DNA of 64,000 bases from Burkholderia plantarii. GTDB taxonomy: Bacteria > Pseudomonadota > Gammaproteobacteria > Burkholderiales > Burkholderiaceae. Shown here one piece after another: positions 192 through 14,278 of the stretch (position 1 is its first letter; each line of letters opens with the position of its first letter). The notes under the pieces were generated by a model, which saw only the letters and a program-made list of their open reading frames with translations, did no database searches and was not told the origin of the DNA. The position numbers and the translations under genes are program-made. The DNA lies in the NCBI RefSeq assembly GCF_001411805.1, contig NZ_CP007212.1, positions 3,596,001-3,660,000 of the forward strand, read 5' to 3'.

Positions 192-277
192 GTAAGCGCT
201 TCCCCAGCACCGTCTGTTCATGAAGGTTCATAGGCGGCAATCTGATTCCCACCAGAATGTAGTGGGAACCAGAAAAA

Positions 278-640
278 ATGGAAATCAAGGCGCAGGGCCG
301 CCGACGAGGCTCCAAGAATTACACGAATGAGTTTCGCACGCAGGTCGTGGCGGAAACACGAGACCCGACCCGTTCACTGGCGGAAGTTGCACGCGCGCAT
401 GGGTTGAACGCGAATCTCGTGTCGAAGTGGCGTCGGGATCAGGAGCAAGAGGCGACGTCCGCATCCGCGCCAGTTGAATTATTCCTGCCTGTTCAGATGG
501 CATCACCGCCGATACCGGAACCGGTCAGATCATCCGGGCTGGTCATCGAATGTCGTGGCGTGCGCGCGTGTTTCGAAGGCAAGCCGGAGTCTGATGTCCT
601 GCGGCTTGTGCTGACAAGCTTGCTGGATGTGGGTTCGTGA
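278..640 (+). CDS. tnpA: IS66 TnpA accessory protein
   Basis: The 120-residue protein has an N-terminal helix-turn-helix of the IS3/IS911 OrfA type: [12 protein letters not shown] followed by [22 protein letters not shown], roughly residues 17-55. The C-terminal half has the usual IS66 TnpA features ([24 protein letters not shown]). In the family TnpA, TnpB and TnpC are all needed for transposition. The stop overlaps the tnpB start as TGATG, which suggests translational coupling. Confidence 0.93.
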
Positions 641-987
641 TGCTGGGCCTTCCCGCTGGGCCGCGGGTGTGGCTGGCTGCTGGTGTGACCGATATGCGTT
701 CCGGCTTCAATAGCCTGGCCGCGAAGGTGCAGACCGTGCTCGAGCGGGACCCGTTCAGCGGACACGTGTTTGTGTTCCGCGGCCGACGCGGCGATCTGGT
801 CAAGGTGCTGTGGTGGAGCGGTGACGGCATGTGTCTGCTGATGAAACGGCTTGAACGCGGCCGCTTTGTCTGGCCGCGTGCGGATGGGGGCGTCGTCAGC
901 TTGAGCCAGGCGCAGTTGTCCATGTTGCTGGAAGGCATCGACTGGCGGCAGCCGGTGCGCACGGCGGCGCCGACCTCAGCGTTGTAA
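640..987 (+). CDS. tnpB: IS66 TnpB accessory protein
   Basis: The 115-residue protein contains the family signature: [28 protein letters not shown] and [15 protein letters not shown] chose the ATG at 640 inside the TGATG overlap with tnpA. A GTG one codon earlier is the alternative. TnpB has no assigned enzyme activity but is required for transposition in characterised IS66 relatives. Confidence 0.93.
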
Positions 988-1016
988 ACCCGCCCACCGG
1001 CGCGTAGACTGCGGGC

Positions 1017-2579
1017 ATGACGACGGCGAACGCGTACCCGGACGACATCGAAGCGCTCAAGGCTCTACTGCTCGAGCGCGATGCCCGCATCGGGCATCTG
1101 GAAGACGTGGTCGAATCGCACAAGGCGGCGACGGCAACCGACAAGGCGGAGATCGAGCGTCTCAAGCTGCTGATCGCAAAGCTGCGCCGCATGCAGTTCG
1201 GCCGCCGCTCGGAGAAACTGGACCGCCAGATCGAGCAGCTCGAGCTGCGTCTGGAAGAACTCGAGGCCGACGAAGGCGCTGCCCCCATCGAGATTCCCAG
1301 GACGCCACGCACGGCACCGGAACAGGTACAACGCAAGCCGTTGCCGGATCACCTGCCGCGCGAGATCCAGATCCATTGGCCCGAATCACGTGAAACCTGC
1401 ACGGCGTGCGGTGCGCCGATGAAGCAGCTTGGCGAGGACGTCGCCGAACAACTCGAGTATGTGCCGGCGAGCTTCCGGGTCATCCGCCATGTGCGGCCGA
1501 AGCTGGCATGTTCATGCTGCGATCACATCGCCCAGGCTGCTGCGCCGAGCCGTCCCATCGAGCGAGGCATGGCTGGCCCGGGACTGCTGGCTCACGTACT
1601 GGTCGCGAAGTTCGCGGATCACCTGCCGCTCTACCGGCAGTCGGTGATCTATGCGCGGGAAGGTGTCGAGCTGGATCGCTCGCTGCTGGCGAAGTGGGTT
1701 GGTCACACTGCGGCGCTGCTGCAACCGCTCGTCGACGCACTGCGTCGCCACGTCATGGCGGCGACGAAGCTCCATGCCGACGATACGCCAGTGCCGGTGC
1801 TTGCGCCAGGGAACGGCAAGACCAAAACCGGACGCCTGTGGGTGTATGTGCGTGACGATCGGGCGTCCAGCGACGCCGCTCCGCCGGCCGTCTGGTTTGC
1901 CTATACGCCGGACCGCAAGGGCATCCATCCGCAGCAGCATCTCGAATCGTTCAATGGCACGTTGCAGGCCGACGCCTACGGCGGCTACCAAGCGATTTAC
2001 GAAACGGGACACGTTGCCGAAGCAGCATGCTGGGCCCACGCACGGCGGCAGTTCTACGAATTGCATGCGGCTCGCCCAAATGTATTGAACACCGAGGCGC
2101 TGGAACGTATCGGCGCGCTCTACAAGGTCGAAGAGCAGATCCGTGGCAAACCGCCCGATGAGCGGCGAGCGCACCGACAAACTCGCGCCAGGCCCTTGCT
2201 CGATCAACTCCATGCGTGGCTGAGCGCCACACTGGAGACGCTCTCGCGCAAATCCGACACGAGTCGGGCGATCCTCTACGCGTTGAACCGGTGGGAAGCG
2301 CTCACGCGCTACTGCGACGACGGGCATCTCGAAATCGATAACCTGCCGGTCGAGCGCGCGTTGCGCGGAGTGGCTATCGGGCGCCGAAACTACCTGTTCG
2401 CCGGCGCGGACTCAGGTGGGGAGCGTGCTGCCGCGATCTACAGCCTGATCGGGACGGCCAAGCTCAACGGCATCGATCCCGAGGCGTATCTGCGCGTCGT
2501 GCTTGCGCGCATTGCAGACCATCCGATCAACCAGGTCGAAGGCCTGCTGCCCTGGAAAATGACCACCCCAGCATCGTAA
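1017..2579 (+). CDS. tnpC: IS66 family transposase TnpC
   Basis: The 520-residue DDE transposase is of normal family length. An N-terminal coiled-coil and leucine-zipper region (about residues 10-90) comes first. A zinc-finger-like segment with CTACGAPM and CSCCDH follows, then the catalytic core. Visible catalytic segments are KLHADDTPVPVL, QADAYGGYQAIY and the C-terminal VERALRGVAIGRRNYLFAGADSG region. The frame is intact. It starts 29 bp after tnpB, with an ATG preceded by a weak purine-rich site. Confidence 0.95.
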   Translation: MTTANAYPDDIEALKALLLERDARIGHLEDVVESHKAATATDKAEIERLKLLIAKLRRMQFGRRSEKLDRQIEQLELRLEELEADEGAAPIEIPRTPRTAPEQVQRKPLPDHLPREIQIHWPESRETCTACGAPMKQLGEDVAEQLEYVPASFRVIRHVRPKLACSCCDHIAQAAAPSRPIERGMAGPGLLAHVLVAKFADHLPLYRQSVIYAREGVELDRSLLAKWVGHTAALLQPLVDALRRHVMAATKLHADDTPVPVLAPGNGKTKTGRLWVYVRDDRASSDAAPPAVWFAYTPDRKGIHPQQHLESFNGTLQADAYGGYQAIYETGHVAEAACWAHARRQFYELHAARPNVLNTEALERIGALYKVEEQIRGKPPDERRAHRQTRARPLLDQLHAWLSATLETLSRKSDTSRAILYALNRWEALTRYCDDGHLEIDNLPVERALRGVAIGRRNYLFAGADSGGERAAAIYSLIGTAKLNGIDPEAYLRVVLARIADHPINQVEGLLPWKMTTPAS

Positions 2580-2618
2580 GGCGATAATGCCGCTGGCTTC
2601 CCGTTCCCCGGAGATCAG

Positions 2619-3215
2619 ATGGCGAAATCGTTCCAGCGCTTTACCCTGCACGTGCAGCTTCAACACATCGAGCCGCCCATCTGGCGTCGGATCGAGGTCG
2701 AAGGAACCGAGTCACTGCGCAAGCTGCACCATATCCTGCAGGCGGCCTTCGGCTGGGAAGACTCCCACCTGCACGACTTCCTGGTCGACGGCATGACCTA
2801 CGCCATGTTCGAGGTCGATGACGTGCTGGACTTCGCTGATCCGGGCACGACCGCCGATGACCGCAAGGTTCGACTGCAGAAGGTCCTGAAACCTGGCTCA
2901 CGCTTCCTCTACCGGTACGACTTCGGGGACGGGTGGGATCACGCCATCGTCGTTAAGAAAGTGGAAATCGTTGAAAGCGAACCGTGGGGCGCGGCCCAGG
3001 TCATCGATGGTGCTCGCGCGTGCCCGCCAGAAGATGTGGGCGGCCCGCCTGGCTACGACGCGTTCCTGAACACGCTATCTAACGATCCGAATAGCGAAGA
3101 GGCAGAACATTACCGAAACTGGGTTGGCCCCGGCTTCGATGCCGATCGGTTCGATCTGCGTGCTGCCAATGCCACGCTGCTGCGCATGGCATCCAATCGT
3201 TGGGGAAACCGGTAA
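2619..3215 (+). CDS. Plasmid pRiA4b ORF-3 family protein, IS66 passenger
   Basis: The 198-residue protein matches the PRiA4_ORF3 family. It opens with FTLHVQLQHIEPPIWRRIEV, followed by LRKLHHILQAAFGW, SHLHDFLV, FLYRYDFGDGWDHAIVV and the conserved PPEDVGGPPGYDAF. The family recurs next to or inside transposable elements and has no established biochemical role. The gene lies 39 bp after tnpC and ends 36 bp before the right IS66 terminus, so it moves with the element. The start is the ATG at AGATCAG-ATG. An earlier in-frame start would overlap nothing useful. Confidence 0.88.
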   Translation: MAKSFQRFTLHVQLQHIEPPIWRRIEVEGTESLRKLHHILQAAFGWEDSHLHDFLVDGMTYAMFEVDDVLDFADPGTTADDRKVRLQKVLKPGSRFLYRYDFGDGWDHAIVVKKVEIVESEPWGAAQVIDGARACPPEDVGGPPGYDAFLNTLSNDPNSEEAEHYRNWVGPGFDADRFDLRAANATLLRMASNRWGNR

Positions 3216-3251
3216 CTCACGCCGTCAAGACGGTATCGGCCCCACGCTTAC

Positions 3252-3259
3252 CGCTCGCC
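3252..3259. repeat. Target-site duplication of the IS66 insertion, right copy
   Basis: CGCTCGCC is identical to 184-191 and lies directly outside the right IS66 terminus, inside the interrupted IS3 orfB. Confidence 0.95.
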
Positions 3260-4019
3260 GGTGGTTGTAAAACTGAATCCAGTCGGCGATGGCGCGGCTC
3301 GCATGCTGTAGCGATTCGAAGCGCTGCCGGTGTACGCATTGCTCCTTCAGCGTCCTGATCACTCGCTCCACCATGCCGTTTTGTTGCGGGCAATGCGGCG
3401 TGATGAACTCCTGCTTCAGGCCGTAATCGCGCACCAGCTTCGTGTACTTTTGGCTCGTGAAAACCAGGCCGTTGTCGCTCCTCAACAGGAATGGCGTCGA
3501 TACTCGACCCAGCGTGCCGAACCGGGCAATCAACGCGTGCTCCAGCGCGCTGGCCGCGGTCGTCGCCTTTCCGCTTCGGGACAGGTGCCAGCCCAGCAAC
3601 TCGCGCGTGTAGCAATCGATGACCAAGGCCAAGGTTGCCCAGCCGTCTCGCCCCGCCCAGATACGGCACATGTCAGTCGACCAGCGCGAGTTCGGTTTGA
3701 GCGCAACCGATGGCATCGATTGCGCCCGTGGCCGAAAGCCAACCGGCCGCTTGCGCACTTGCCAGCCCATCAACTGGAACACGCGTTGCACCGTGTTCTT
3801 GTTGAAGCCCAGCAGGTGCGCCACCGTCCGATAGCCGAACGATGGTGACTCTTCGATCATCGCCTTGATCGGGTCCGAGAAACGCGCCTGCACAACGGGT
3901 TCTGCCTTGACTGGCCGGTAATACACGGTTCGGCGCGGCACATCGAACCACTTGCAGAGCTTGGAAATCGAAACGACAACGCCTTCTTCTTTCAGTCCCT
4001 GGTGGATCGTTTCGATCAC
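3252..4019 (-). pseudogene. IS3-family transposase OrfB, main part, disrupted by IS66
   Basis: This encodes the integrase-like DDE transposase of the host IS3 element. It starts with GTG at 4019, overlapping the TGA of orfA. The rve-type core is visible: STDMCRIW with the first Asp, LRSDNGLVF with the second, and PQQNGMVERVIRTLKE with the Glu. The C-terminus is cut after FYNHRRA by the IS66 copy at 192-3251. Rejoining across the insertion and counting the 8-bp duplication once gives 822 nt, or 273 residues, with the frame intact. The interruption is therefore recent or at least undecayed. Confidence 0.9.
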
Positions 4020-4054
4020 TTCTCGTCCTCGCCCAGCAGGGACTGCAATTTTTT
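4016..4054 (-). pseudogene. IS3-family OrfA, C-terminal fragment cut off by ISL3
   Basis: The minus strand encodes KKLQSLLGEDEK and a TGA that overlaps the GTG start of orfB. It is the distal end of the orfA interrupted at 5361. The -1 frame is open from the A-run into orfB, as expected for the OrfAB fusion of IS3 elements. Confidence 0.85.
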
Positions 4055-5360
4055 AGGTTCATCGCGGATTACCGGGGAACGCGGCGCGGATTTTGAGGAA
4101 GAAATACTCCTCGTCGCGATACCCATAAGCGCGGCGCTTGAGGACCTTGATCGTGTTGTTGATGCCCTCGACCACGCTGGTATTGAGCGGGTGCCGGCAG
4201 CGCGCGACGATGCCGTGCCAATAGCTTTGCAGGCGCCGGGCGAACAACTCAAGCGCAGCGATCCCGCTTTGCGCCGCCTGCTCTATCCAATGCTCCCAGG
4301 CCTTTTGGGCCCACGCCGGTTTGCGATAGAACCAGAGCCGCTTGAGTTCATCGCGTAGCAGATAGACACATAACAGCGGCTGGTTGGCCTCCAGCAACTC
4401 CTTCAGATGCACCGACTGTTCCGGTTTGAGATTGCGCCGGTTGCGCAGCAGCAGCCAGCGGCTGGACTTCAGAACCTTTCGCGCCGGCCGGTCGTGGCGC
4501 AGTTGATTGGCTTGATCGACACGAACGCGGTCAATGACCTCGCGTCCGTATTTGGCAACGACATGGAACAGGTCGTAGACGATCTCGGCCTGTGGGCAAT
4601 GCGCATTGATCTCCAGCTCGTAGGCCGTCGTCATGTCGATGGCAACCGCTTCGATGCGCTTGGCGACGCCTGGCGGAAGCTGCTCGAAGAAGGCTCGGGC
4701 CGTCTCGCGTGAGCGTCCCTGACCGATCCACAGCACTTGACGGCCAATCGGATCGACGACCACCGTGGCGTAACGGTGACCTTTGTGAAGTGCGAATTCG
4801 TCCATCGCCAAATAGCGGATGGATGACCAGTCCGGATCCCTTACTCGAGCACGCAAACGGGCCTTGTCGATCGATTTGACTGTATGCCAGCCTAAATCGT
4901 AAAAGGCCGCCACTGCCTGCACACTGGCCGCCTGAAGCAGCTTCTCGCAGGCTTTGGCAAACCGCTCCGTGACACGCTGGTAGCGGCCCAACCAGTCCAG
5001 TTTCTCCAGTCTCGGACCGCCACAGTGATCGCACCACACTCGTCGACGCGGCACGTGCAACACGACACGATATTCAAACAGTGGCAGATCGCGCACTCTG
5101 CGAATCGACGTCTCGTGGATCTGCGAGCAACGCGCCCCGCATTGCTCGCAGAGCATCACCTTGCCTACCGGTTTCAGATACAGCGCGAGCGTGCGGCCTT
5201 CGCCTTGTGGCCACTCCACCCGCTCCAGCCGATAGCCCGTCCAGCAGCCCAGCGCTTGCAATGCCTTGCGATCGAGCACTTCATCCTCCAACGCCTTGCT
5301 TGAAAGACGTCAGATTACAAAACTGCTCGCCACGGCTCCACGGAATCCTGCGATGAACCT
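4055..5360 (-). mobile_element. Complete ISL3-family element, about 1.3 kb
   Basis: The inverted ends both begin (A)GGTTCATCGC. The left inward read continues GGATTACCGG and the right inward read AGGATTCCGTGG. The element encodes one intact transposase whose stop codon lies inside the left repeat. It sits in an A-run of the host IS3 orfA. Six identical bases flank the two ends; ISL3 elements usually duplicate eight, and the homopolymer makes the exact length uncertain. Confidence 0.88.
4059..5291 (-). CDS. ISL3 family transposase
   Basis: The 410-residue protein is full length for ISL3. The N-terminal zinc-ribbon region has CEQCGARC near residue 48 and CDHCGGPR near residue 87, followed by a helix-turn-helix. 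The DDE domain shows RYLAMDEFALHKGH (first Asp), VAIDMTTAY (second Asp) and SVVEGINNTIKVLKRRAYGYRD (Glu). No frameshift is seen. It is the only gene of the inserted element. Confidence 0.95.
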   Translation of the reverse strand: MEDEVLDRKALQALGCWTGYRLERVEWPQGEGRTLALYLKPVGKVMLCEQCGARCSQIHETSIRRVRDLPLFEYRVVLHVPRRRVWCDHCGGPRLEKLDWLGRYQRVTERFAKACEKLLQAASVQAVAAFYDLGWHTVKSIDKARLRARVRDPDWSSIRYLAMDEFALHKGHRYATVVVDPIGRQVLWIGQGRSRETARAFFEQLPPGVAKRIEAVAIDMTTAYELEINAHCPQAEIVYDLFHVVAKYGREVIDRVRVDQANQLRHDRPARKVLKSSRWLLLRNRRNLKPEQSVHLKELLEANQPLLCVYLLRDELKRLWFYRKPAWAQKAWEHWIEQAAQSGIAALELFARRLQSYWHGIVARCRHPLNTSVVEGINNTIKVLKRRAYGYRDEEYFFLKIRAAFPGNPR

Positions 5361-5660
5361 TTTTTTTCTGGCGCGCAACTCCAGCATGGCTTCGCCGTAG
5401 GCCTCCTGCAGCTCCTTGATCTGCCGCTCGTACTGCTCCTTGACGTCCAGCGGATTGGCACGAAGCGCGTTCTCCATGCCTCGCTTGCCGTCGTCCACCC
5501 AGTTCTCAACCTCGGAGGGCGACGACAGGTCATAGTTTCGGCTGGCTTCGGCAACCGTCGTCTTGCCCTGAATGATGTCCATCACCAGCGCGCTCTTGCG
5601 CTTGGCCGTCCATCGTTTGATGTCTTCGTCCATCTTCGTGCCCATCGTCTTTTCATCCAT
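5361..5660 (-). pseudogene. IS3-family OrfA, N-terminal part, disrupted by ISL3
   Basis: This is the DNA-binding protein of the host IS3 element. It has an N-terminal helix-turn-helix-like segment (KSALVMDIIQGKTTVAEASR) and a later helical, charged region typical of OrfA leucine zippers. After RARKK the frame runs into the ISL3 inverted repeat. The missing C-terminus, KKLQSLLGEDEK, lies on the other side of ISL3 at 4016-4054. Removing ISL3 and six duplicated bases restores a 333-nt frame of 110 residues. Confidence 0.85.
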
Positions 5661-5694
5661 TATGACGTGAGCAGGTTTTCACTGGGTCGGTACA

Positions 5695-6054
5695 ATGCCA
5701 AGAAGCTTGAACAGGGTGGGGAAGGTACGACGAGCGCTGAATCTAGTGGCGCTGCTGGTGATGGTCGGATGCGGCGGGACTTACGCCCTTGACGTTTGGA
5801 TCAACCGACAGATCGTGGCCGAGCAGGTCCAGGAGCCTATGTTCCAAGACACTCACTTCGGGTCCGGCTTCTGGTCCGGCATGTTCGGCGGAGCCTACTG
5901 TGGCGAAGTCTCAGGAATCAACGGCTTCGGCATGCGGAGTCCTTACTTCCGATTCGTCGTCCTTCGTGGCGAAGTTCAAATCTTTCCCATGACCACTGAC
6001 CGCATAAAGATCAACGATTTCGAGAATTTATGGGTGGCGCAGTGCAACGACTGA
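5695..6054 (+). CDS. Hypothetical membrane or lipoprotein-like protein next to IS end
   Basis: I do not recognise this 119-residue protein. Residues 13-30 are hydrophobic (ALNLVALLVMVGCGGTYAL) and could be a signal anchor. MVGC is a lipobox-like sequence, though not a strong one. The rest is soluble, with two further cysteines (GAYCGEVSG and the C-terminal QCND), so a disulfide is possible outside the cytoplasm. The ATG begins only 6 bp after the IS3 right end, so the original 5' region has probably been replaced. The protein may be truncated or read from an IS-borne promoter. Confidence 0.5.
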   Translation: MPRSLNRVGKVRRALNLVALLVMVGCGGTYALDVWINRQIVAEQVQEPMFQDTHFGSGFWSGMFGGAYCGEVSGINGFGMRSPYFRFVVLRGEVQIFPMTTDRIKINDFENLWVAQCND

Positions 6055-6123
6055 TCCGCAAACGATAAACACCCTGATGCTTCTAAAGTAGATATTGGGG
6101 GACCGAAGAAAACCACTACCTGA

Positions 6124-6292
6124 TCCACAAAGGGAGGTCTGCAACACTAGATTTTGTGTTGCATGTGGAGATAACACTGTATATGCTCACAGGGGTTGGC
6201 ACTCGCAGAATCGGAGTGCCAGCATGAATGGCGGGGGACTCGGTTGCAGCCGAGCCCCGCCTAGCGGAAACCTCTTTGGCAAGCTTCCGCTA
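6124..6292 (+). other. Run of stable stem-loops, possible structured RNA or leader
   Basis: Four hairpins follow one another without an open frame of note. TCCACA/TGTGGA with inner GCAACAC/GTGTTGC spans 6124-6169. TGGCACTC/GAGTGCCA spans 6197-6221. GGCGGGG/CCCCGCC with inner CTCGG/CCGAG spans 6230-6261. TAGCGGAA/TTCCGCTA spans 6262-6292. They end about 110 bp before the small gene at 6404. I match them to no known riboswitch or sRNA family. Strand assignment rests only on the downstream gene. Confidence 0.4.
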
Positions 6293-6403
6293 CCCTGCAG
6301 GACAGGACGCGTGACGATAGGGCAAATAGCAGCTTTTTGCAATAGCAATCGGTCTAGGGACTTCACAGCTTGCCGTTCAATTGCCAACTGAAGGAGCTAT
6401 CCT

Positions 6404-6592
6404 ATGGCAAACGGTAACAAACCGGGTACCAACTCGGGTAATCAGGGCGGTATCTATCAGGAGCGCGGCCCGCGCGGTGGCTTGAAGGACAACTTCACTA
6501 CCGTTCCGGAAAATCGTTCCTTTCCGCCGACGAGCCAACCCGGCAGCACTTGGGTTCCTCGCAACAAGACGCCTCACGGCAATCATAAGTAA
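6404..6592 (+). CDS. YjzC-like small protein
   Basis: The 62-residue hydrophilic, Gly/Asn/Pro-rich protein has the pattern KPGTNSGNQGGIYQERGPRGG followed by TVPENRSFPPTSQPGSTWVP. This resembles the small YjzC family of Bacillus and many Gram-negatives, in which a PG..A.NSG.Y.E.G motif is followed by a FPPT/W segment. Function is unknown. A clear ribosome-binding site (GAAGGAG) lies 8 bp upstream and a good terminator lies 21 bp downstream, so it is probably a single-gene transcript. Confidence 0.7.
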   Translation: MANGNKPGTNSGNQGGIYQERGPRGGLKDNFTTVPENRSFPPTSQPGSTWVPRNKTPHGNHK

Positions 6593-6612
6593 CGCAAAGC
6601 GCCCCTAGGGCC

Positions 6613-6646
6613 AAGGGAGAGGTATCACCTCTCCCTTCTGCTTTTC
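6613..6646 (+). terminator. Rho-independent terminator after the YjzC-like gene
   Basis: An 11-bp perfect stem (AAGGGAGAGGT with ACCTCTCCCTT, loop ATC) is followed by CTGCTTTT. Confidence 0.8.
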
Positions 6647-7191
6647 CTCCTTTCTCCTCCCCTCGCGCTTCACTCCCTAGAGTGTTATTCGCGCTCGCTG
6701 AAATTCCGAATCCGATTAGAAGGTTGAGTCTCCACTCCACCCCGTCTAACTTTAGTCAGGTACGGAATTCACCAAAATTGGGGCGGCCAGCGCCGTGTTC
6801 TTTTCAGCCGAGCCGCGCGGCTCGGGCGCATGGCTTGTGCGCTTTCATGAGCTTGCGAGGGAGGGAAAAATCGGAGCGTTTATCGCGTCGGTCGAAGCGT
6901 GAGCGCCTAGAAGCACGGGCGGATTTGGTGCGATTGCAAATCGCACCGCAGATGCACCTCGGAGGGGTGCGTCGGGTGTATAACCAATAAAAAAACATCG
7001 AAACTACAGGCCAGTCAATAAAACCCGAAATACCAATTCGCTCACTGTCCGTGGCTGTCCGTTGTGTGGTGCGTCGCTGATCACGGACCTTCTCAAATCT
7101 TCGTGCGTCGTTTGGTCATGCACGCGTCCATGTTCATTCGCCGAAAGACAAAACTGCCAAGGTTCGCAACTGCACAGTTAGATCGCATGAG
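6647..7191. other. Gene-free stretch with three palindromic stems
   Basis: No convincing coding frame is present. Three symmetrical stems occur: CGAGCCGC-GCGGCTCG near 6810-6830, GGTGCGATT-GCA-AATCGCACC at 6927-6947, and GCACC/GGTGC around 6954-6970. They lie downstream of the AlkB-fusion gene, which is transcribed leftwards from 9417, so some may terminate that operon. A short direct repeat, CTGTCCG-TGG-CTGTCCG, occurs near 7040. Confidence 0.4.
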
Positions 7192-9417
7192 TCAGGTGGC
7201 GACCTTCCTGAAAGTGATGGACACACGGCGACCGCGCGGCACTCCGTGCTCCTTGAGGCGTGCAGGGATCTCGTGATGCCATGCGCTCCGTGCCTCACCA
7301 TCGAGAACAACCGCACTGCAGCGCGCAAGCGATTGAACGAATTTCGCGGTCTCCCCTGCGATTTTCCGTGTGAAGATCATGTCCCAAGTTTCCAGCAAAC
7401 TGATGGTGACGACCGGGCCGCGGAAGCAATCCTTGCAATCGATGTGCTTCGAGATGCCCTGCTTACCTTCGTAGTTGTTGACGATCACCTGGTCTGGCAA
7501 CTCTGGAACGACACCCGACGCGAGCAGACGTTCCGCTAAGTCCCCGGCCCATTCCGGAAGCGGGCCGAGATAGTTGGCAGGCGCAACCTGCCGTGCTCTG
7601 TAATCATAGCGCCAGCCATAATGCTGGACCCGACGCTTCATCAACTGATCCCATTCAGCAGAGTCGATCGCGGCGATTAATTGGCCCTCTTCGTCTCCAT
7701 CGATGAAGTTTGGCAGCACTTTCAGGCCAAGTGGCTCACCGGCGCTCTTGACGGCCGGCTTGGATGCCGGTTTGATTGCAGGCTTCTTTGGCGTGATGGC
7801 AAATGAGGCCTGCGTGGAAGAGATGCTGGGCGAAAAGGGAGCCTTATCCTGTCGGGGCAAGGTGCTCGATGGACGCGCCAGCCGACGAGAGATGCTAGCA
7901 ATCGCCAGCCATTCTTTGAAGCGAGACTGATTCAGCCTTCGATCGAATGTCACGCCTTGGCTCATCGCGAACTCAACCCGACCAGTGACCGTCAAGGCGG
8001 ATTGCCTCTCCAACTCAAGAACACCGCCTCCGACAAGCTGGATCGTTGTGTTTTCCAACACAACTAGCTGGTCGAGTGAGTAAGGGCATTCTTCGAATGC
8101 GAGGGTTCGGGCTTCCAGTTGAACCGCTTGGTCTTCGAAGTCTGCTCGATACCAGCTGCCACGGGTTCCTAGCTTGTACTCGCCCCATGTCTGCGCGCCC
8201 GCCGTCATCACGACTACGCCATCGTCGACTCGCCATGCCACATTGTCTGGCGTCAGCGCATGCCAAGGCCCTGAGCCGTTCGTGCCAGCCTGCTGCCAAG
8301 TCTTTAAAGCCAAAAGCTTTCTGCATTCCGTGGGTCCACGAAACTGCTTGGGCAAGGCGCTATAGCCCTGCAAATAGCCAGCGAGGGTCATGCCAGTCCA
8401 CCAGACCACTGGGGGGATTGCTGGCCAATCCTCGCGCCAGCTGGAAAACTTATCAGGCGACGGTCGGAGTAGTAGCAATTGAAGCGTCAAGGCGAGGAAG
8501 TCGTCGTGAGCCCCAAGGTCTTGCACGGTTCCCCTATCGTCAAGGAGCGCCCTCGTACCCTCAAAAAGTTTCGCTAGCCGAGTCTCATCCTCGCCAAGAT
8601 CTCGCGCATGCTCACAGATGTCGTTTAGGATGGCCCTCGCCCGCCATTCATCCAATATTCCTGGCTGCGAGAACTTCGCAACCATGGCTCGCCAGAGCTT
8701 GGGAAGCTGGTCCTGCTCCGCACTGTCGACCCAGAGCGCAGTTCGCCACCAGGGCGCATGCAGCCGTTCGACGGACTCAGCGCTTGCAACACCGGAGCAA
8801 AGCAGATCGCAGAACAATTCAACCCATGGATCAATCACAGGGACAGCGAAAGCCGCCATCGCGGCAGCGCCTCGCAATGCGTTCCAGTTCGATGGAGGCT
8901 GCCAAGGACTCTTTTCCTGTGGCATGCTCTTCGGTGGCGCCACTTGCGAGAACGCACCAACTTTGAACGGCTGGGAGGGAACCTCCATGTCCGCGAAGTT
9001 GCGAGCCATTGCCAAGAGCTTAGCCTTTACAGCCGCTGAACTCACGCTGAAATGGTCAACTGCAAACGCCGGCAGCGGGCCATCCCACGATACAACGGTG
9101 TCGCTGGCCCTCAAACCGCGCAAGGTGGATTCGGTCCATGCGCCATCCCTCCACACCTTGACGGTGTTGTCCGGAAGGCTCTGGGCATCGAACCAGATGC
9201 CGACGGATGACGAGTTGCTAGAATCACTGCCACAAGCCTGCTGCGTGCCGAGCAGCAAGTGCCCTGCCGGCGGAATTATCCATTCGCTGCTGAGAAATTG
9301 CAGAAAGGCTTCTTGGTCCAAAATCAGACCAAGAAGACGCACACCGCCAGCAACTTGCTGCTCGGGTGCGGGCGCAGATGCAAGTAGCTCCAACTGGCCG
9401 CCGGGCATAGAGGTCAT
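7192..9417 (-). CDS. AlkB-type Fe(II)/2-oxoglutarate dioxygenase with large unknown N-terminal region
   Basis: The 741-residue protein has a C-terminal AlkB domain of about 190 residues. It contains QVIVNNYEGKQGISKHID (iron ligands His658 and Asp660), W-x-His715 in RSAWHHEIP, and RRVSITFRK with the two arginines that bind 2-oxoglutarate. The family oxidatively demethylates alkylated DNA or RNA bases. A basic, proline-rich linker (about 490-540) joins it to an N-terminal region that I cannot assign; it has several Trp-rich segments and no membrane helix. I chose the ATG at 9417 because it overlaps the helicase stop as ATGA. An ATG ten codons earlier is possible. It is the third gene of the operon. 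Confidence 0.85.
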   Translation of the reverse strand: MTSMPGGQLELLASAPAPEQQVAGGVRLLGLILDQEAFLQFLSSEWIIPPAGHLLLGTQQACGSDSSNSSSVGIWFDAQSLPDNTVKVWRDGAWTESTLRGLRASDTVVSWDGPLPAFAVDHFSVSSAAVKAKLLAMARNFADMEVPSQPFKVGAFSQVAPPKSMPQEKSPWQPPSNWNALRGAAAMAAFAVPVIDPWVELFCDLLCSGVASAESVERLHAPWWRTALWVDSAEQDQLPKLWRAMVAKFSQPGILDEWRARAILNDICEHARDLGEDETRLAKLFEGTRALLDDRGTVQDLGAHDDFLALTLQLLLLRPSPDKFSSWREDWPAIPPVVWWTGMTLAGYLQGYSALPKQFRGPTECRKLLALKTWQQAGTNGSGPWHALTPDNVAWRVDDGVVVMTAGAQTWGEYKLGTRGSWYRADFEDQAVQLEARTLAFEECPYSLDQLVVLENTTIQLVGGGVLELERQSALTVTGRVEFAMSQGVTFDRRLNQSRFKEWLAIASISRRLARPSSTLPRQDKAPFSPSISSTQASFAITPKKPAIKPASKPAVKSAGEPLGLKVLPNFIDGDEEGQLIAAIDSAEWDQLMKRRVQHYGWRYDYRARQVAPANYLGPLPEWAGDLAERLLASGVVPELPDQVIVNNYEGKQGISKHIDCKDCFRGPVVTISLLETWDMIFTRKIAGETAKFVQSLARCSAVVLDGEARSAWHHEIPARLKEHGVPRGRRVSITFRKVAT

Positions 9418-10520
9418 CGTTCTAGGATGGGGGGAGGAGGAAGACAAGCCAATTGTGCCTCCGAAAGTAGGTTAGGCCCATTGACAAGAAGCAAGGCGTC
9501 CCTAGCGCGGGCACAGAGCATGTACAAGCGCCGTTGATGGACCGGGAGAATCATTGGCAACGAGCGGTCCAGGTCTTGAAGGTACACGGTATCGAACTCA
9601 AGCCCTATGGCCGATTCGCCAGAGATGATGGTGATGCCGGCATCGCGCAGGCGAATAGCATCCTCCGCCTTAGCTTCGGCATTGCTAGTGTACATGTCGA
9701 CGCGAGCATCGGGCAATCGGGCCCTGAGCAAAGCATGCAGAACATTGATGTCTTCCTGGCGATAAACGATAACCCCAATAGAGCCACCGCGGTTTCCGAA
9801 TCTGACGGCAACCTGCTGGGCCAACGCTTCCCAAGTAGCTACCGTGATCATCCTGGGTGGCTCGTTGGACCGCCCACGCTGCGCCGGCGCTGGCGGGACA
9901 TAGCGGTCCTGGTGGAAACACTCAATCAGTTCAGCAATCTCAAACGTGTTGCGGTGATTGACCGTCAGAACGTGCATCTCCGTGAAACCGGCGTCCCGCA
10001 AATCCGCAACGTGGCAACCGCCGTCTTCTGTCGACTGATTCTCATCCGCAAAGACTGAGACGGTTACAGCCCCGAAGCGACAAGCCCAGATGAAGAACTC
10101 TTTCGGCAGATTTTGTCCTTCGTCGACGATGAGGTGGTCGATCGAGGGCGTAACATTGGCCTCAGCATAGTCTTGAAGAGCTTGTTGCCAGTTGAATTGA
10201 TACGGCAAGTGCTGGGGAATATTGTGGCCGAAGATATTCCTATAGTGGTTCCAGACTAGCGTGTGCATCGTGGTGCTGGTGACAGGCGCATTCCCCTGAT
10301 CTTGAGAAATCTGTGTCGCCAGAGCTGCAAGCAGCCGGTTCTTGGTGACCACGGTCACCCGGCGTTGATAGTCAGGCCCGGCAAGAATATTGGCCTTCCA
10401 GAGAGCTACGGAGGTCTTCCCGGATCCAGGTGGTCCAACCACCAGAATCGACTGGTCGGGATCGGCCATGAACACCTGACGCTGCTCTTCGATCAGAGCA
10501 CTAAAACTTGGCAATCTCAT
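9414..10520 (-). CDS. Compact UvrD-like superfamily 1 helicase/ATPase
   Basis: The 368-residue protein has SF1 motifs in order: Walker A VVGPPGSGKTS (29-37), Walker B-type LIVDEGQNLP with DEGQ at 133-136, a motif III-like VFADENQSTEDGG, a motif IV-like VNHRNTFE, a motif V-like SGESAIGLEFDTVYL and a motif VI-like RRLYMLCARARD. It is about half the length of UvrD or Rep and seems to lack the 1B/2B insertions. It may therefore be a translocase or a remodeller working with a partner. Both neighbours overlap it by 4 bp (ATGA), so stoichiometric production with the methyltransferase and AlkB protein is likely. Confidence 0.88.
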   Translation of the reverse strand: MRLPSFSALIEEQRQVFMADPDQSILVVGPPGSGKTSVALWKANILAGPDYQRRVTVVTKNRLLAALATQISQDQGNAPVTSTTMHTLVWNHYRNIFGHNIPQHLPYQFNWQQALQDYAEANVTPSIDHLIVDEGQNLPKEFFIWACRFGAVTVSVFADENQSTEDGGCHVADLRDAGFTEMHVLTVNHRNTFEIAELIECFHQDRYVPPAPAQRGRSNEPPRMITVATWEALAQQVAVRFGNRGGSIGVIVYRQEDINVLHALLRARLPDARVDMYTSNAEAKAEDAIRLRDAGITIISGESAIGLEFDTVYLQDLDRSLPMILPVHQRRLYMLCARARDALLLVNGPNLLSEAQLACLPPPPILER

Positions 10521-11368
10521 CGGTTAACCTCGTTTAGCGGAATCGGCATCGGCGCGCGCGTGAATAGTGCGTAGTGGATATTGCGTGGCCTATCTCCGTC
10601 TGTCAGCAATTCGGTTTCGACCACCTCGCACTTGAAGCCAGCAGCTTCCATACGGCTCTGAAACTCGGGGAATGCTAGGCGCCGCTCAGGCAGCGCCGAG
10701 TTCGTGTACAGCACTGCCACCGGACCCGGGCCAATACGGCCGCATGCGTCGACGATCTCACGCACGATCAGCTCAATATTGAGCGACGCGCTAGCCAGCA
10801 GGTAGGACAAGACCACAACGGTCCAGCCCAGCTTGGGCTGCCCGAAATCGATGCTGTTTATTGAGCCAGCGAAAGACACCCTCGTCTGAGGGCTTAACCC
10901 TCCAGCTCCCTGCGCGGCAAGCGCGAGTTCATGTCCGAGGGCGCACATTTGCACCGAAGTGTCGACGCCAAAATATCGGAAGGCAACTTCGTTGCCAGCC
11001 ACGTTGGCGAGTGCCAAACCGGCGGTAAACGGTCCGCACCCAATGTCGAGCATCGTGGCGTTGTTCAGGCGCTGCGGGCTGTCCACGAGTTTTTGGAACG
11101 CGTGGATCAATTCGGGAACGTGCCCCTTTTGGTTGAAGAGGGCGTAAAGAATGACCCGATCTCTTGGGGAGAGGTCTTCAATTGGCTCATCGAAGTTCGC
11201 CTGCCCGCCGCCGATAGCGTGGCTAAAGATCCAGCCGCTCGACTTGCCTAATCGCGTCCCCCGCTGGCCCGTCTCTCTGGGGTCGTTGTTGAGCGGGTCG
11301 ACAATGCATGTGCGGCGCACATGCTCATACCAAGGCCTGACTGTGATCAAGCTGCCCCCTAGCTTCAT
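10517..11368 (-). CDS. SAM-dependent methyltransferase, class I, first gene of helicase-AlkB operon
   Basis: The 283-residue protein shows motif I as MLDIGCGPFTAG (Asp108 to Gly112) and an acidic motif II near YFGVDTSVQM. The Rossmann-type methyltransferase continues to a C-terminal substrate region (EAAGFKCEVVETELL). The (N/D)PP(Y/F) motif of amino-DNA methyltransferases is absent, so an N6-adenine or N4-cytosine restriction-type enzyme is unlikely. The substrate could be RNA, a protein or a small molecule. The residues before about 60 are not recognised. The stop overlaps the helicase start as ATGA. No good ribosome-binding site is visible before the ATG. Confidence 0.8.
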   Translation of the reverse strand: MKLGGSLITVRPWYEHVRRTCIVDPLNNDPRETGQRGTRLGKSSGWIFSHAIGGGQANFDEPIEDLSPRDRVILYALFNQKGHVPELIHAFQKLVDSPQRLNNATMLDIGCGPFTAGLALANVAGNEVAFRYFGVDTSVQMCALGHELALAAQGAGGLSPQTRVSFAGSINSIDFGQPKLGWTVVVLSYLLASASLNIELIVREIVDACGRIGPGPVAVLYTNSALPERRLAFPEFQSRMEAAGFKCEVVETELLTDGDRPRNIHYALFTRAPMPIPLNEVNR

Positions 11369-11391
11369 TTGTTAGCAAATGTAAGAGGCTG

Positions 11392-11420
11392 ATTGTCACC
11401 CACGCTGGTCACGGCAACAA
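11392..11420 (-). promoter_or_regulatory. Candidate sigma-70 promoter of the methyltransferase-helicase-AlkB operon
   Basis: On the minus strand, TTGTTG is followed after 17 bp by GACAAT, 24 bp before the methyltransferase ATG. The match is moderate (3/6 and 4/6), but this is the only suitable site in the short gap between the operon and the IS remnant. Confidence 0.35.
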
Positions 11421-11442
11421 CTGAATATATATGGAGGTGACC

Positions 11443-11562
11443 CTGTAATTCAGGACACGTGGACACCGTTAGGTTGATGACGCAGGAGCCCGCCTTAACT
11501 CGCGAGGCAAGCGGTATTTCAGGGCTTTGCGCGGGCGACGCTCGTTGTAATGCTCAAAGAGC
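11443..11562 (-). pseudogene. IS3-family element remnant, transposase C-terminus and end
   Basis: The minus strand encodes LFEHYNERRPRKALKYRLP, then RELRRAPASST and a stop at 11469-11471. This is the usual tail of an IS3 OrfB and differs from the OrfB at 3252-4019. TGTAATTCAGGACACGTGG at 11443 is probably the element terminus. The rest of the element is missing and the neighbouring truncated gene begins at once, so this is a deletion scar. Confidence 0.75.
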
Positions 11563-11996
11563 ACGATGTGTATCTCGGGCCGCCGCTCATCGACGCCGCA
11601 CGCATGGAGCACTCGCAGAGGATCATCGGCGCGTCGTTCACGAGTTCATTTATGAATCAGATCGTCCCGCCCAAATATCTTGTGTCGTTTGAGAAGCACC
11701 TGAAAAAGGATGGCGGCGATCTGTTCGAAGGGCACGTTCTCGACTGGCCAAGGCATTGGCGGGCCACACGAAAAACCGATCTCCGCGAACTCATTCGAGC
11801 GTTTTCCCCACCTCCGGCGACAGCGGACATTTACGACAACACGCTTTGCCTCATCGACGCCTCGGATGCTCGGGCAAGCATGTTTGACGGTCCGGACGAG
11901 ATGCCGCTCGGCAAAATCTATCCGCAATTTTCGACGAAAGCACTTGCGCTTCGGGCTTGCGCGGTGAGGCGCGTCCCAGCCAACGGCGGGCAATAA
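11550..11996 (+). pseudogene. Truncated hypothetical protein, 5' end lost at IS remnant
   Basis: A 148-codon frame reads VYLGPPLIDAARMEHSQRI, then SSFMNQIVPPKYLVSFEKHL, and further on DNTLCLIDASDA. The GPPLIDA-x4-E pattern recalls the end of class III nucleotide cyclase-like domains (GPGLIxAYxLE), but that is a weak resemblance. The first dozen codons overlap the IS3 remnant on the other strand, so the original N-terminus was removed. There is no ribosome-binding site. I treat it as a broken gene of unknown function. Confidence 0.5.
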
Positions 11997-12123
11997 GACT
12001 TAGCTTGCCCAGGCGTCGAGCATGCTCCGATATCGCCCGCGCAGCCACTCGGCAGGGAATCGATAGCGTCAGGTCAGGTGATGGCCCTGTTTTGGCCCGG
12101 CCAGCGTCTCCCGGGCGCGACGC

Positions 12124-12564
12124 TTAACTCTTCTGCGCGGTGTATCCAAGGAGCACCGTTTCGAGTTCGACCGACTCAACGTTCCCGTTCGGTGCCGAAT
12201 CGTTTCTCATCTCTAAAACCATTTGCGTGAACGCGGCGCGCTGCTCATCCGAGTTCATTGTTGCCCCAAGCCGTTCAAACGTCGCGAATGCCCTCACAAC
12301 AACCGGCGCGCCATATAGACAGATGCGGCATTTGGCGTCTGCCGTTCTAAACCCCAGGTCGCGTCCATCGGCAGACTCGCGCGGTTTTTTCAGATTGGCG
12401 TGCTCGGACACGCATTTCAGGTAATCCGTGTAGGCCAGTGCCCGAAGCTCTCGGTGATGCTTTTGTCTATCGAGGTGGCGAGTGAACCAATATTGAAGAA
12501 GGGCACCTATGACGACGCCAAGAAATGAAAAGACAGCCGCGATCAGGGGGATGGAGTCTTTCAT
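12124..12564 (-). CDS. Small membrane-anchored hypothetical protein
   Basis: The 146-residue protein has one N-terminal transmembrane segment (LIAAVFSFLGVVIGALLQYWF, about 6-27). A basic, helical region follows (TRHLDRQKHHRELRALAYTDYLKCVSEH) and then a soluble tail. Small single-span proteins of this form are common in Proteobacteria and have no known function. The gene is bounded on the left by 127 bp without a clear gene. Confidence 0.65.
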   Translation of the reverse strand: MKDSIPLIAAVFSFLGVVIGALLQYWFTRHLDRQKHHRELRALAYTDYLKCVSEHANLKKPRESADGRDLGFRTADAKCRICLYGAPVVVRAFATFERLGATMNSDEQRAAFTQMVLEMRNDSAPNGNVESVELETVLLGYTAQKS

Positions 12565-12837
12565 AATTCAATTAGATGTGTTTGGCGCCCCGTCTGCCAT
12601 GCGCCATCTGCTCCGACGGCTCTATGCGGTCGGAGAAGTGTCAAGCGACCGCGCGGGTGGGAAATACTGCGGTGCAGGAAAAACCGTTCGTCCACTATCT
12701 CCCTTCGCTGGTTGACAAACCCTTCCAGGGTCGTAGATTGCGGCCGCTCGAAGACAGCACGCCTGCGAAGGCGTGCCCAACTGAGCCTGCACGCCTCCTA
12801 TTCCCGCGAGGCGCGACAACCCATTCCGGAGCCTTTG

Positions 12838-12990
12838 ATGACCAAGTCAGAAAAATTCTGGGCCGCGATAGCATTCAGCGCCATTTTCGCGCTGATCGCG
12901 AACGTTGCGGTTACCTTCTATCTCGACAACCAACAATTCACGGTCTTTGAAAAGGGCTGCCAAGGACCCTCACTCAACCGCGCTCCTTAA
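12838..12990 (+). CDS. Small single-span membrane protein, 50 residues
   Basis: The ATG at 12838 follows a purine-rich CGGAGCC site at suitable distance. Residues 7-28 (FWAAIAFSAIFALIANVAVTFY) form one transmembrane helix, followed by a short tail with one cysteine. It converges on and overlaps the 3' end of the small minus-strand gene at 12970. Not recognised. Confidence 0.5.
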   Translation: MTKSEKFWAAIAFSAIFALIANVAVTFYLDNQQFTVFEKGCQGPSLNRAP

Positions 12991-13158
12991 CGCGCCCATC
13001 CAGCTATTCTTTTTGCAAGCGGCAGCGACCGAATCGTCCGTCTCGTAGGCGTGGGACGGATTCAGGCATTTGTAGTCTGTCCATTTTTGCTGAATAAATA
13101 GGGCAATAGTCACCAACAGCAGGGCAACGGCTAAAACGCCCAAGATTTTTGCGAGCAT
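12970..13158 (-). CDS. Small single-span membrane protein, 62 residues
   Basis: The ATG at 13158 has GTGGAG 7 bp upstream. Residues 4-23 (KILGVLAVALLLVTIALFIQ) form one membrane helix. The outer tail has two cysteines (YKCLNPSHAYETDDSVAAAC), which could form a disulfide. Its 3' end overlaps the facing small membrane gene by 21 bp. Function unknown. Confidence 0.5.
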   Translation of the reverse strand: MLAKILGVLAVALLLVTIALFIQQKWTDYKCLNPSHAYETDDSVAAACKKNSWMGALRSAVE

Positions 13159-13389
13159 GCAGAAACTCCACATTCGACTGTTTACGCATAGCCCTTTGAT
13201 GGGCAACGCTTTCACGGCTTGACACGGCTCCAAACGGCATGTGCGCAATCGCCCGCCAAGCGTCTCGCGTGATACTATCAGTGAGCCGTAGTTCTTCATA
13301 CGAAAATCCGGCTTGCCTCGCGCCAACGCGTTGATTGCGCTGGAGAATCCCCCGGAGCGGTCTCCCCTCCCTGATTCGCCACCATATTC
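13159..13389. other. Intergenic, no clear gene
   Basis: I see no convincing frame. The segment ends with ATTCGCCACCA just before a terminator, which resembles the last bases of a tRNA-like transcript. No T-arm or acceptor partner can be traced, so no RNA gene is called. Confidence 0.3.
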
Positions 13390-13424
13390 AAAGCCCGATA
13401 CGACGAAAGTTGTATCGGGCTTTT
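13390..13424 (+). terminator. Rho-independent terminator
   Basis: AAGCCCGATAC and GTATCGGGCTT form a perfect stem around GACGAAAGTT, followed by TT and a pyrimidine tail. No gene directly upstream on the plus strand explains it. Confidence 0.7.
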
Positions 13425-13742
13425 CTCTTTGGCGCGACGCATCCTCCACCGAGTGCGACTCGCGCTCACCGCCCTGCCACGGCCACCCGCCACTTCCACC
13501 GTCCCCCCTGCCCCGAACACCGTCACGGGTAATTTCGTCTCCATTGATCCGATGAAATCAACAGGCGATTAACTGGAAAAATCTCGATTATTTTCACGCC
13601 ATTGCACCGACACTCGCCATGTCGCGCCGCTTCCATCATCCTCCCGCACATCAAAAACAAATTGATCGACAAAACACTTATAACCAGACACTTAAAATAT
13701 TCATCGATCCAGTTTCTTGCATTTCATATTAAAAACCAATCC

Positions 13743-13771
13743 TTGAAAATCACTGTGCGCCTTCCTAGCAT
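13743..13771 (+). promoter_or_regulatory. Candidate sigma-70 promoter for the gene at 13919
   Basis: TTGAAA and TAGCAT are separated by 17 bp, in an unusually AT-rich 350-bp stretch (13560-13910) that holds no gene. The AT-richness would also suit H-NS binding. Confidence 0.35.
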
Positions 13772-13918
13772 TCATCTGCCGCAGGATGGCAGGGGGGCGC
13801 ACCGGCAATCAACCCGACACGCCGCTCACCTCTTGCGCGCACCGGCATTAGCAATGCCCGCTTCAAATCACACGCAGACGTTGCTTTTCAAACGCATTTA
13901 ATTTTCTCGGAGAGAAAA

Positions 13919-14278
13919 ATGACGCAAGAAAAAGACTCACGTTTCGGGGTGGTGCCGTATGAAGGTCCGGTATATCAAGCCGCCCGGATTCAACCCGACG
14001 ACGCGGTTCTCGGCCTGGACGTCCACGTCACGGCCCGAGGCGCCAACCGGTCCACCGGCTTCCACGTGTTCCTCCGGATCGATCCGGCGCAGATCGCGCC
14101 GCCGGAACTGGACTTCGTTAATCGTCCGCCGACCGGCATCGTGGCCCCGGTCATCGTCCCGTTTTCCGTCAACACCACGCTCAAATATCCGCTGAACGTG
14201 GAATTCGTGACGATCCACGACGCGCGGGGCACCCACCGGGTGCCGATTGACCGGATCCTGGCCACCAACGCGGCCTGA
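13919..14278 (+). CDS. Hypothetical protein, 119 residues
   Basis: I do not recognise this protein. It has no signal peptide or membrane segment. The composition suggests a beta-rich small domain (LGLDVHVTARGANRSTGFHVFLRID, then PVIVPFSVNTTLKYPLNVEFVTIHD). A good ribosome-binding site (CGGAGAG) lies 8 bp before the ATG, and a 12-bp hairpin follows 12 bp after the stop. It is therefore very likely expressed, from the AT-rich upstream region. Confidence 0.7.
   Translation: MTQEKDSRFGVVPYEGPVYQAARIQPDDAVLGLDVHVTARGANRSTGFHVFLRIDPAQIAPPELDFVNRPPTGIVAPVIVPFSVNTTLKYPLNVEFVTIHDARGTHRVPIDRILATNAA

Follow-up and report, generated by a model that had tools for sequence, protein, structure and literature searches.

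Within the window, the 64,000-nucleotide stretch of Burkholderia plantarii DNA analysed here, three genes follow one another on the reverse strand: a class I SAM methyltransferase (MTase) with a predicted METTL17/Rsm22-like fold (10517..11368, an ORF of 283 aa), a compact SF1 (UvrD/HelD-like) helicase or translocase (9414..10520, 368 aa, assigned from its ORF, Pfam and a PDB profile match), and an AlkB fusion protein (7192..9417). As originally predicted, both junctions are ATGA stop/start overlaps in the sequence, at 10517..10520 between MTase and helicase and at 9414..9417 between helicase and AlkB fusion. Relatives with E <= 1e-3 number at least 102 for the AlkB fusion, at least 757 for the helicase (for these two, only the roughly 8000 candidates with the most common words were scored, 7991 for AlkB) and 219 for the MTase; because relatives exist for all three, the ORFs are not chance. 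A promoter/terminator scan yielded no more than shuffled sequence. The operon lies in an IS-rich stretch (positions 1..14000) of 53-65% GC, against 71% from position 15000 onward, which starts upstream of the window close to a tRNA-Met gene. The insertion sequences expected around the operon were identified as IS66, IS3 and ISL3.

The motifs by which the original prediction recognised the two partner enzymes have proved to be conserved. In the MTase, D108, G110, C111 and G112 of LDIGCG, together with D136, are invariant among 104 aligned MTases (103 of the 120 listed matches were used, of 219 found). Structure modelling places its fold nearest to METTL17/Rsm22, with METTL17 ranking fourth in Foldseek, level with many MTases. 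By sequence profile, trans-aconitate methyltransferase leads the PDB matches (6.6e-4) and METTL17 reaches an E value of 0.12; the Pfam Rsm22 family (PF09243) misses its cut-off (12.6 versus 23 bits). Passages of the literature describe METTL17/Rsm22 as factors that help to assemble the small subunit of the mitochondrial ribosome (PMC9892005), in vitro methylation of mt-tRNA by yeast Rsm22 (PMC8171064), and an A-P-C-H-x-x-C-P cysteine cluster that holds a metal or Fe-S center (PMC8171064; Fe4S4 in PMC9892005). This cluster is absent from the 283-aa protein, and its alignment contains no such invariant columns. The operon MTase shares a predicted fold with these mitoribosome assembly factors but differs from them in its cysteines, its Pfam score and its profile match.

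In the helicase, K35 and T36 of Walker A and D133 and E134 of DEGQ are invariant among 107 aligned helicases (106 of 120 listed matches, of 757 found). The protein matches Pfam AAA_19 (2.8e-6) and AAA_22 (4.2e-6) and, over residues 121-344, the PDB profile of HelD/helicase IV (3e-21); it resembles HelD, helicase IV and UvrD. Judging from its length, it would lack the large insertions of the bigger SF1 helicases. A single-sequence scan of genome contigs found no relative of the helicase, and an alignment-based scan found 244, of which the best 80 were kept. In PADLOC, matches to GajB of Gabija extend no further than about residue 106, and the trio has no match to GajA.

The third gene is listed from a TTG at 9447, which gives a protein of 751 aa. 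Its true start is probably not this TTG but the ATG at 9417, since that ATG, at residue 11 (M11), is near-invariant (at least 90% of 87 aligned relatives); the resulting 741 aa is the length of cluster P0001. The alignment used 86 of the 102 matches, dropping the self match, 14 partial or low-coverage sequences and P0033. Residues 565-751 (7195..7755, reverse strand) form an Fe(II)/2-oxoglutarate dioxygenase domain of the ALKBH8 type, its nearest AlkB proteins being ALKBH8, and the predicted HxD...H...R...R motif is present as H668, D670, H725, R741 and R747, invariant in the 87 aligned fusions. A HMMER Pfam search of 48 fusions found the AlkB domain in all 48 and, beyond it, nothing better than E 0.03. 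No PADLOC-DB 2023 family matches the fusion at E <= 1.

The N-terminal portion of the fusion, about 500 aa and termed here region X (residues 34-530; 7858..9348, reverse strand), was delimited from a structure model and a remote profile match. It is rich in Trp and Arg. The model, mostly with pLDDT >90, predicts a beta domain (38-163), a helical domain (188-400) and a second beta domain (404-516); by position, the first would be ART-like and the helical domain ARG-like. A PDB fold search was run with the whole AlkB-fusion model, and its matches were all taken up by the AlkB domain. Against a profile of eight 2CompART-type sequences, region X gives a collinear match over 311 columns with a score of 28.5, at an hhalign probability of only 2.7% (P 0.017). 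This score exceeds those of 200 column shuffles (maximum 22.6), which remove helix periodicity, and of 26 decoy alignments (maximum 23.0), several of which resample the same families. Compared by hhalign with single 2CompART-type proteins or with two of them, region X gave no significant match; plain hmmsearch against four such proteins did no better than shuffles, and matches to PF22546 or PF22545 are absent from the window's fusion and 48 relatives. No Asp, Glu or His is kept in at least 93% of 112 region X sequences. With support from the eight-sequence profile only, region X is putatively a remote, degenerate relative of the Pfam 2CompART-type proteins.

Four-gene relatives of the operon, consisting of a helicase, a 2CompART-type protein, an MTase and an AlkB protein, are present in five loci: L064 (Hymenobacter), L077 (Pedobacter) and L134-L136 (three genomes of the Pedobacter genome's family). 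In these five loci the 2CompART-type gene, like the fusion gene here, directly follows a small SF1 helicase gene, and the helicase, MTase and AlkB proteins are related to those of the operon. Unlike the 2CompART and 2CompARG proteins (PF22546, PF22545), region X is fused to AlkB and has neither a Pfam match nor conserved Asp, Glu or His. A 2CompARG match occurs only in L077, whose 2CompART/ARG protein is encoded at 6675-8486, with none in L064 or in the genome of L104. Because PF22545 is absent from that genome, the 2CompART protein of L104 is without a recognised ARG domain; a search for PF22545 across 299 genomes of the phylum, that of L104 included, gave no match, the control genomes being silent as well. 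PF22546 likewise gave no match in the window's own genome, with a silent control.

The three genes form a conserved unit that is sporadic in its distribution. Of the 36 full-length fusion loci retrieved (two of which, L008 and L035, are contigs of one MAG), 34 have the MTase and helicase next to the fusion, so the trio is not rarely adjacent, which would have counted against the dedicated system originally proposed. The order is MTase-helicase-AlkB in 32 loci and helicase-AlkB-MTase in 2; at L009 and L034 neither partner accompanies the fusion. A helicase/AlkB overlap of 4 nt recurs in 16 of the 27 loci with a measurable gap. The three proteins have also diverged together, with mirror-tree r values of 0.892, 0.925 and 0.894 (0 of 2000 permutations) over the 24 of 36 loci with clean calls of all three genes, L011, L019, L025 and L031 having been excluded by hand. 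When lists of relatives were paired by equal size of the carrying contig, using the best 120 of 757 helicases and 120 of 219 MTases, at least 56 of 90 AlkB entries on contigs of at least 4.5 kb had a counterpart in one or other of these lists, and at least 33 had one in both; at least 20 MTases paired with the helicase but not the AlkB list among the matches listed. Record titles place the loci in Pseudomonadota groups, Myxococcota, Acidobacteria, Gemmatimonadetes, Bdellovibrionales, Entotheonella and a Synechococcus MAG; the Enhygromyxa locus we take to be from Myxococcota. Only 1 of 398 sampled genomes of the family carries a full-length fusion. Phage records gave no match to the fusion, and of 37 plasmid records with matches none covers 80% of the query; among viral contigs, 20 loci match, one of them (L110) along the whole length. 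Apart from the operon's own genes, the most widely shared neighbour family, an ABC ATPase family, occurs in no more than 4 fusion loci. This lack of common neighbours, and a helicase with no evident role in such a pathway, make it highly improbable that the genes are a tailoring cluster for a secondary metabolite.

MTases also accompany ALKBH8-type AlkB proteins elsewhere. Among 44 other such loci (L038-L081), which do not have the full fusion and whose best segment is 39-55% identical, 25 carry an MTase either immediately upstream or in fusion: in 10 of the 44, this is a relative of the operon MTase, upstream or, in L070, fused, and in 15 of the 44 a BMT5-like MTase, one of them a weak match (PF10354 was confirmed in 5 of 5 genomes tested). 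Eukaryotic ALKBH8, which modifies tRNA in humans and is marked by its hydroxylation of mcm5U there, has the domain order RRM-AlkB-MTase. The comparison with ALKBH8 made in the original prediction is apt for the AlkB domain, which is closest to ALKBH8 among AlkB proteins, but does not extend to the architecture: Pfam scans of the window's fusion and 48 relatives reveal no RRM, the MTase has a gene of its own (a fusion is seen only at L070, a distant locus), and the operon adds a helicase and region X. The bacterial ALKBH8 group covered in passages of PMC4051686 is of the same AlkB type; loci L038-L081 are without region X and mostly without the helicase, many of them adjoining BMT5-like or METTL17-like MTases.

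The METTL17-like fold of the MTase, the ALKBH8-type AlkB domain and the BMT5-like partners would suit an ordinary accessory modification of translation RNA (tRNA or rRNA), spread by islands and unrelated to phage. Such a role does not readily account for the patchiness, the low-GC, IS-rich location or the defence neighbours of some relatives, and we regard it as unlikely. RNA as the substrate is not firm, because passages of PMC4051686 report in vitro repair of DNA etheno adducts by bacterial ALKBH8 proteins, and an A. tumefaciens mutant in which tRNA-Gly(UCC), the tRNA expected to be affected, stayed normal. That repair activity, and the likeness of the helicase to HelD, helicase IV and UvrD, would fit a system for DNA alkylation or etheno-adduct repair, in which AlkB removes adducts, the helicase opens duplex DNA and the MTase leaves a mark or has a side role. 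Repair would not need an MTase, although 34 of 36 loci retain it, and the patchy distribution is unlike that of housekeeping repair; this explanation is quite unlikely.

Some copies of the operon or its relatives lie beside defence genes. Neighbours include Dsr2 (1.5e-147) and HerA at L064, QatA (7e-132) at L077, LmuB (4e-128) at L005 of Rugamonas aquatica, a type I MTase (1.7e-278) at L017, and DrmA (5e-197) and DrmB (5e-67) at L139. Neighbour scans matched 165 families with 102 proteins and 140 with 106, versus 95 with 113 in a control that itself contains AbiE and R-M. The set of 106 includes genes of L064 and L077, the source of the Dsr2, QatA and some HerA matches. The 208 proteins comprise 200 of 248 listed, trimmed by hand (L015 and L032 were dropped wholly and L035 is absent), and 8 added (one from L009, four from L064, three from L077), the 2CompART proteins themselves making up two of the 8. 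For the control, 113 of 141 listed proteins were scanned, from 20 of 44 loci. Thus, defence-gene neighbourhoods do occur, but their enrichment over the control is only modest. PADLOC identifies no trio protein as a clear component of a known system: DISARM, Lamassu, Qat and DSR2 are neighbours of some relatives, whereas the trio proteins have no convincing match to their components. Of the papers listed by searches of open-licence PMC, none describes such an operon or AlkB in defence in its title or the beginning of its abstract.

At L009, the fusion adjoins DarT and an ADP-ribosylglycohydrolase. This pair, defence neighbours elsewhere, the presence of opposite chemistries within one operon, and relatives with 2CompART and, in L077, 2CompARG, an add/remove pair by name, might suggest abortive infection by writer and eraser. 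AlkB would keep removing a harmful mark made by the MTase until phage interference with AlkB, or activation through the helicase, let the mark accumulate and growth stop. The harm of the mark is an assumption here, ALKBH8 hydroxylates rather than erases, and MTase-AlkB pairs occur without helicase or region X, so this possibility appears distinctly unlikely.

The reading we tentatively prefer, at a little under an even chance, is that the trio is a horizontally moving, self-contained module for nucleic-acid (most likely RNA) modification. In such a module, the METTL17-like MTase would methylate a base of some structured RNA, probably one that serves in translation, and the SF1 motor would open or remodel the substrate or sense abnormal nucleic acid. 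The Trp/Arg-rich region X, as a degenerate 2CompART-type relative that may have kept the scaffold and lost the conserved acidic residues, would place the ALKBH8-type domain on the substrate; this domain would then oxidise the methylated or alkylated base, by hydroxylation as in ALKBH8 or by demethylation. Carried in islands, with some copies beside defence genes, the unit would probably alter or protect translation under phage attack or stress. The original suggestion of a modification, repair or anti-phage function is partly supported. The gene content, the catalytic motifs, the linkage and co-divergence of the genes, their patchiness and some defence neighbours are observed, and the folds are predicted; the anti-phage purpose, like RNA as the substrate, the order of reactions and the role of the motor, is something we infer.

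New here are the ALKBH8-type oxygenase, the predicted MTase fold nearest METTL17, the probable link between region X and 2CompART, and the MTase pairing at other ALKBH8-type loci. A bolder interpretation, possible but doubtful, is that the operon represents a so far unnamed class of bacterial immune system, in which a METTL17-like MTase together with an ALKBH8-type oxygenase would produce, or hold in readiness, a methyl/hydroxymethyl mark on translation RNA under control of a helicase and 2CompART-type module, intact in Bacteroidota and a scaffold here. If true, bacterial ALKBH8 enzymes would have their missing set of partners, and the MTase-plus-AlkB logic of eukaryotic ALKBH8 would have a bacterial source. 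The pairing also ties methyl/oxidation chemistry to the class of 2CompART helicases, which has copies beside DSR2, Qat and DISARM genes. The candidate partners of bacterial ALKBH8-type oxygenases can now be named as a METTL17-like MTase, a BMT5-like MTase, or an MTase with helicase and region X, the first concrete partner set for these enzymes, in many unrelated bacteria though rare.

The operon consists of three genes on the minus strand: an ORF for a 283-residue methyltransferase (MTase; 10517 to 11368), a second for a compact SF1 helicase (9414 to 10520), and a third for the AlkB fusion, which extends from 7192 to 9447 when begun at a TTG or to 9417 when begun at the conserved ATG. As the original prediction had held, both junctions, MTase/helicase and helicase/AlkB fusion, are ATGA overlaps. 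The enzyme motifs that it had named also hold up, as the catalytic residues are invariant in aligned relatives: D108, G110, C111, G112, and D136 of the MTase (104 rows); K35, T36, D133, and E134 of the helicase (107 rows); and H668, D670, H725, R741, and R747 of AlkB (87 rows).

When GTDB genomes were scanned with an alignment of the fusion, 244 relatives were confirmed. Among the best 80 of these 244, which were kept, 36 loci (L002 to L037, with L008 and L035 being two contigs of a single MAG) match along the AlkB fusion. In HMM searches of stop-to-stop ORFs, an MTase and a helicase whose best pieces each score more than 150 bits adjoin the fusion at 34 of the 36 loci, the other two being L009 and L034; the three genes travel together when linkage is viewed starting from the AlkB fusion as query. 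The gene order is MTase-helicase-AlkB in 32 loci and helicase-AlkB-MTase in 2 (L022, L023). The exact 4-nt helicase/AlkB overlap recurs in 16 of the 27 loci with a measurable gap, several larger negative gap values being a product of longest-ORF start choice. Across 24 loci, the pairwise distances of the MTase, helicase, and AlkB fusion correlate with one another (0.892, 0.925, and 0.894), and 0 of 2000 permutations were as high. Among the listed clusters of at least 3 loci, no non-operon family occurs at more than 4 fusion loci, the one with 4 encoding ABC ATPases (L007, L008, L032, and L034). The helicase family is wider than the trio, with 757 matches and other partners, as at L139. Both the unity of the operon and the types of enzyme that it encodes are firmly supported.

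The N-terminal region of the fusion (region X, residues 34 to 530) is well modelled in the predicted structure as two beta domains with a helical domain between them, and has no match in Pfam. In a Pedobacter locus (L077), a helicase of the same family precedes a protein that has the Pfam domains 2CompART (2.8e-29) and 2CompARG (2.7e-25); the protein at that position in a Hymenobacter locus (L064) contains 2CompART only (2.3e-6). Sampling found 2CompART in 5 of 301 genomes from the Pedobacter genome's family and 2 of 369 from the window's class, where one of the two (L105) falls below the cut-off. Relatives of the MTase and AlkB accompany the 2CompART-type protein in L064, L077, L134, L135, and L136; L138 stops at a contig edge. 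L137 (1937 to 9794) contains a helicase, a 2CompART-type protein, a 487-residue protein, and an AlkB-like protein that is more distant (33 bits), and adjoins a putative IS21 gene pair. In L139 (1423 to 10673), from the same genome as L105, the DISARM genes drmA and drmB precede a small SF1 helicase and the 2CompART-type gene (below the Pfam cut-off), after which a putative NERD-like protein is encoded.

A profile of 8 2CompART-type proteins aligns collinearly with region X over 311 columns with a score of 28.5 (25.5 to 29.7 upon dropping any one protein), against a mean of 13.0 (sd 2.06, maximum 22.6) for 200 column shuffles and 13.3 for the reversed profile. Decoy alignments, 26 in all and in part repeated samples of the same families, score at most 23.0, over 18 columns. 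Features common to region X and the profile include an LP motif (first domain) and GxxxG (helical domain). These sequence comparisons make homology likely but, because the hhalign probability is low (2.7%, P 0.017), not proven. The only charged residues kept in at least 93% of 112 region X sequences are R328, R370, and R429; no Asp, Glu, or His reaches that level. In the 2CompART-type proteins, several acidic positions are conserved under a looser criterion of 75% of 8 sequences. On this pattern, any ADP-ribose chemistry has probably been lost, and region X may be a scaffold or sensor.

MTase partners also occur at 25 of the other 44 ALKBH8-type loci among the best 80 of 244 (L038 to L081, including L046, a fragment of the fusion type). 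A relative of the window MTase is directly upstream or fused in 10, and a BMT5-like MTase is directly upstream in 15 (L040, L043, L044, L045, L048, L049, L052, L055, L059, L061, L063, L067, L068, L079, and L081, the last with a weak match of 21 bits). Of the rest, 16 show neither kind and 3 end at contig edges; in L077 the MTase is on the opposite strand. PF10354, the BMT5-like family, was confirmed in 5 of 5 genomes tested, with coordinates agreeing with the neighbour gene. In yeast, BMT5 methylates uridine in ribosomal RNA. Many records with BMT5-like loci are titled as alphaproteobacteria. In L070 (4544 to 6139), a Poribacteria MAG, the MTase relative and AlkB share a single ORF, with a domain order opposite to that of ALKBH8. 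This pairing of ALKBH8-type AlkBs with MTases suggests that the AlkB substrate is made by the partner MTase. Bacterial ALKBH8s have been recognised as a group, with their role yet to be settled; tRNA-Gly(UCC) stayed normal in an A. tumefaciens mutant, and etheno-adducted DNA is a substrate of the proteins in vitro (PMC4051686).

A full-length fusion is confined to the window's genome (1051.6 bits; next 34.6) among 398 genomes sampled from its family, of which 22 show a match of some kind. Likewise, only the window's genome has the full MTase among 300 sampled from the order (432 bits; next 25.4). Searches for the fusion gave no match in phage records and no full-length match in plasmid records; the whole trio is present in an IMG/VR contig (L110, 8038 to 19789), where a putative integrase-like ORF lies about 6 kb away. 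The operon sits in a stretch of 53 to 65% GC (71% from 15000 onward) together with IS66, IS3, and ISL3 transposases, bearing out its placement among insertion sequences. The ISL3 transposase (4059 to 5291) is flanked by IS3-type orfA (5310 to 5660) and orfB (3225 to 4019), a span of 3225 to 5660 that suggests an ISL3 insertion between the two. A tRNA-Met gene lies 3.3 kb before the window start, in a 2-kb bin of 62.8% GC that is followed by one of 53.2%. Near it, in the same low-GC stretch just before the window (L140, G000 C1, 18369 to 20000), is a TIGR04141 'sporadically distributed' protein (5e-153). The low GC, the transposases, the TIGR04141 gene, and the GC shift at tRNA-Met together point to a genomic island.

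Defence genes adjoin some loci: Dsr2 and HerA at L064, QatA at L077, DrmA/DrmB at L139, LmuB at L005, and type I R-M at L017, several of these matched neighbours having been picked on prior suspicion. At L009 (3065 to 12250), the fusion, without its usual MTase and helicase, is beside DarT, ADP-ribosylglycohydrolase, UvrD, and an Eco57I-type MTase. In two neighbour sets checked for defence matches, 6 of 10 and 7 of 10 proteins had none. At 1e-10, 102 neighbours match 165 PADLOC families and 106 match 140, against 95 matched by a control of 113 proteins that neighbour other AlkB loci. Because a single protein can hit many families, and genes of L064 and L077 are among the 106, these counts are crude and the enrichment is modest. 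The defence neighbourhood raised by the original prediction is seen at individual loci, with a modest excess over the control.

The operon is best placed with two known kinds, the 2CompART/helicase class and the bacterial ALKBH8s; no description of it was found in searches of open-licence PMC papers. RNA would be the substrate on the strength of two resemblances and the MTase-partner rule, and a defence role rests on patchiness, location, and neighbours. That the operon represents an unnamed class of bacterial immune system, built on a translation-RNA mark by a METTL17-like MTase and an ALKBH8-type oxygenase, seems rather unlikely, and slightly more so because 2CompARG is shown only in L077 and Foldseek by itself does not set METTL17 apart as the match of the MTase. 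The best explanation, which we favour tentatively and at somewhat less than an even chance, is a mobile module that would methylate and then oxidise RNA, perhaps in defence.
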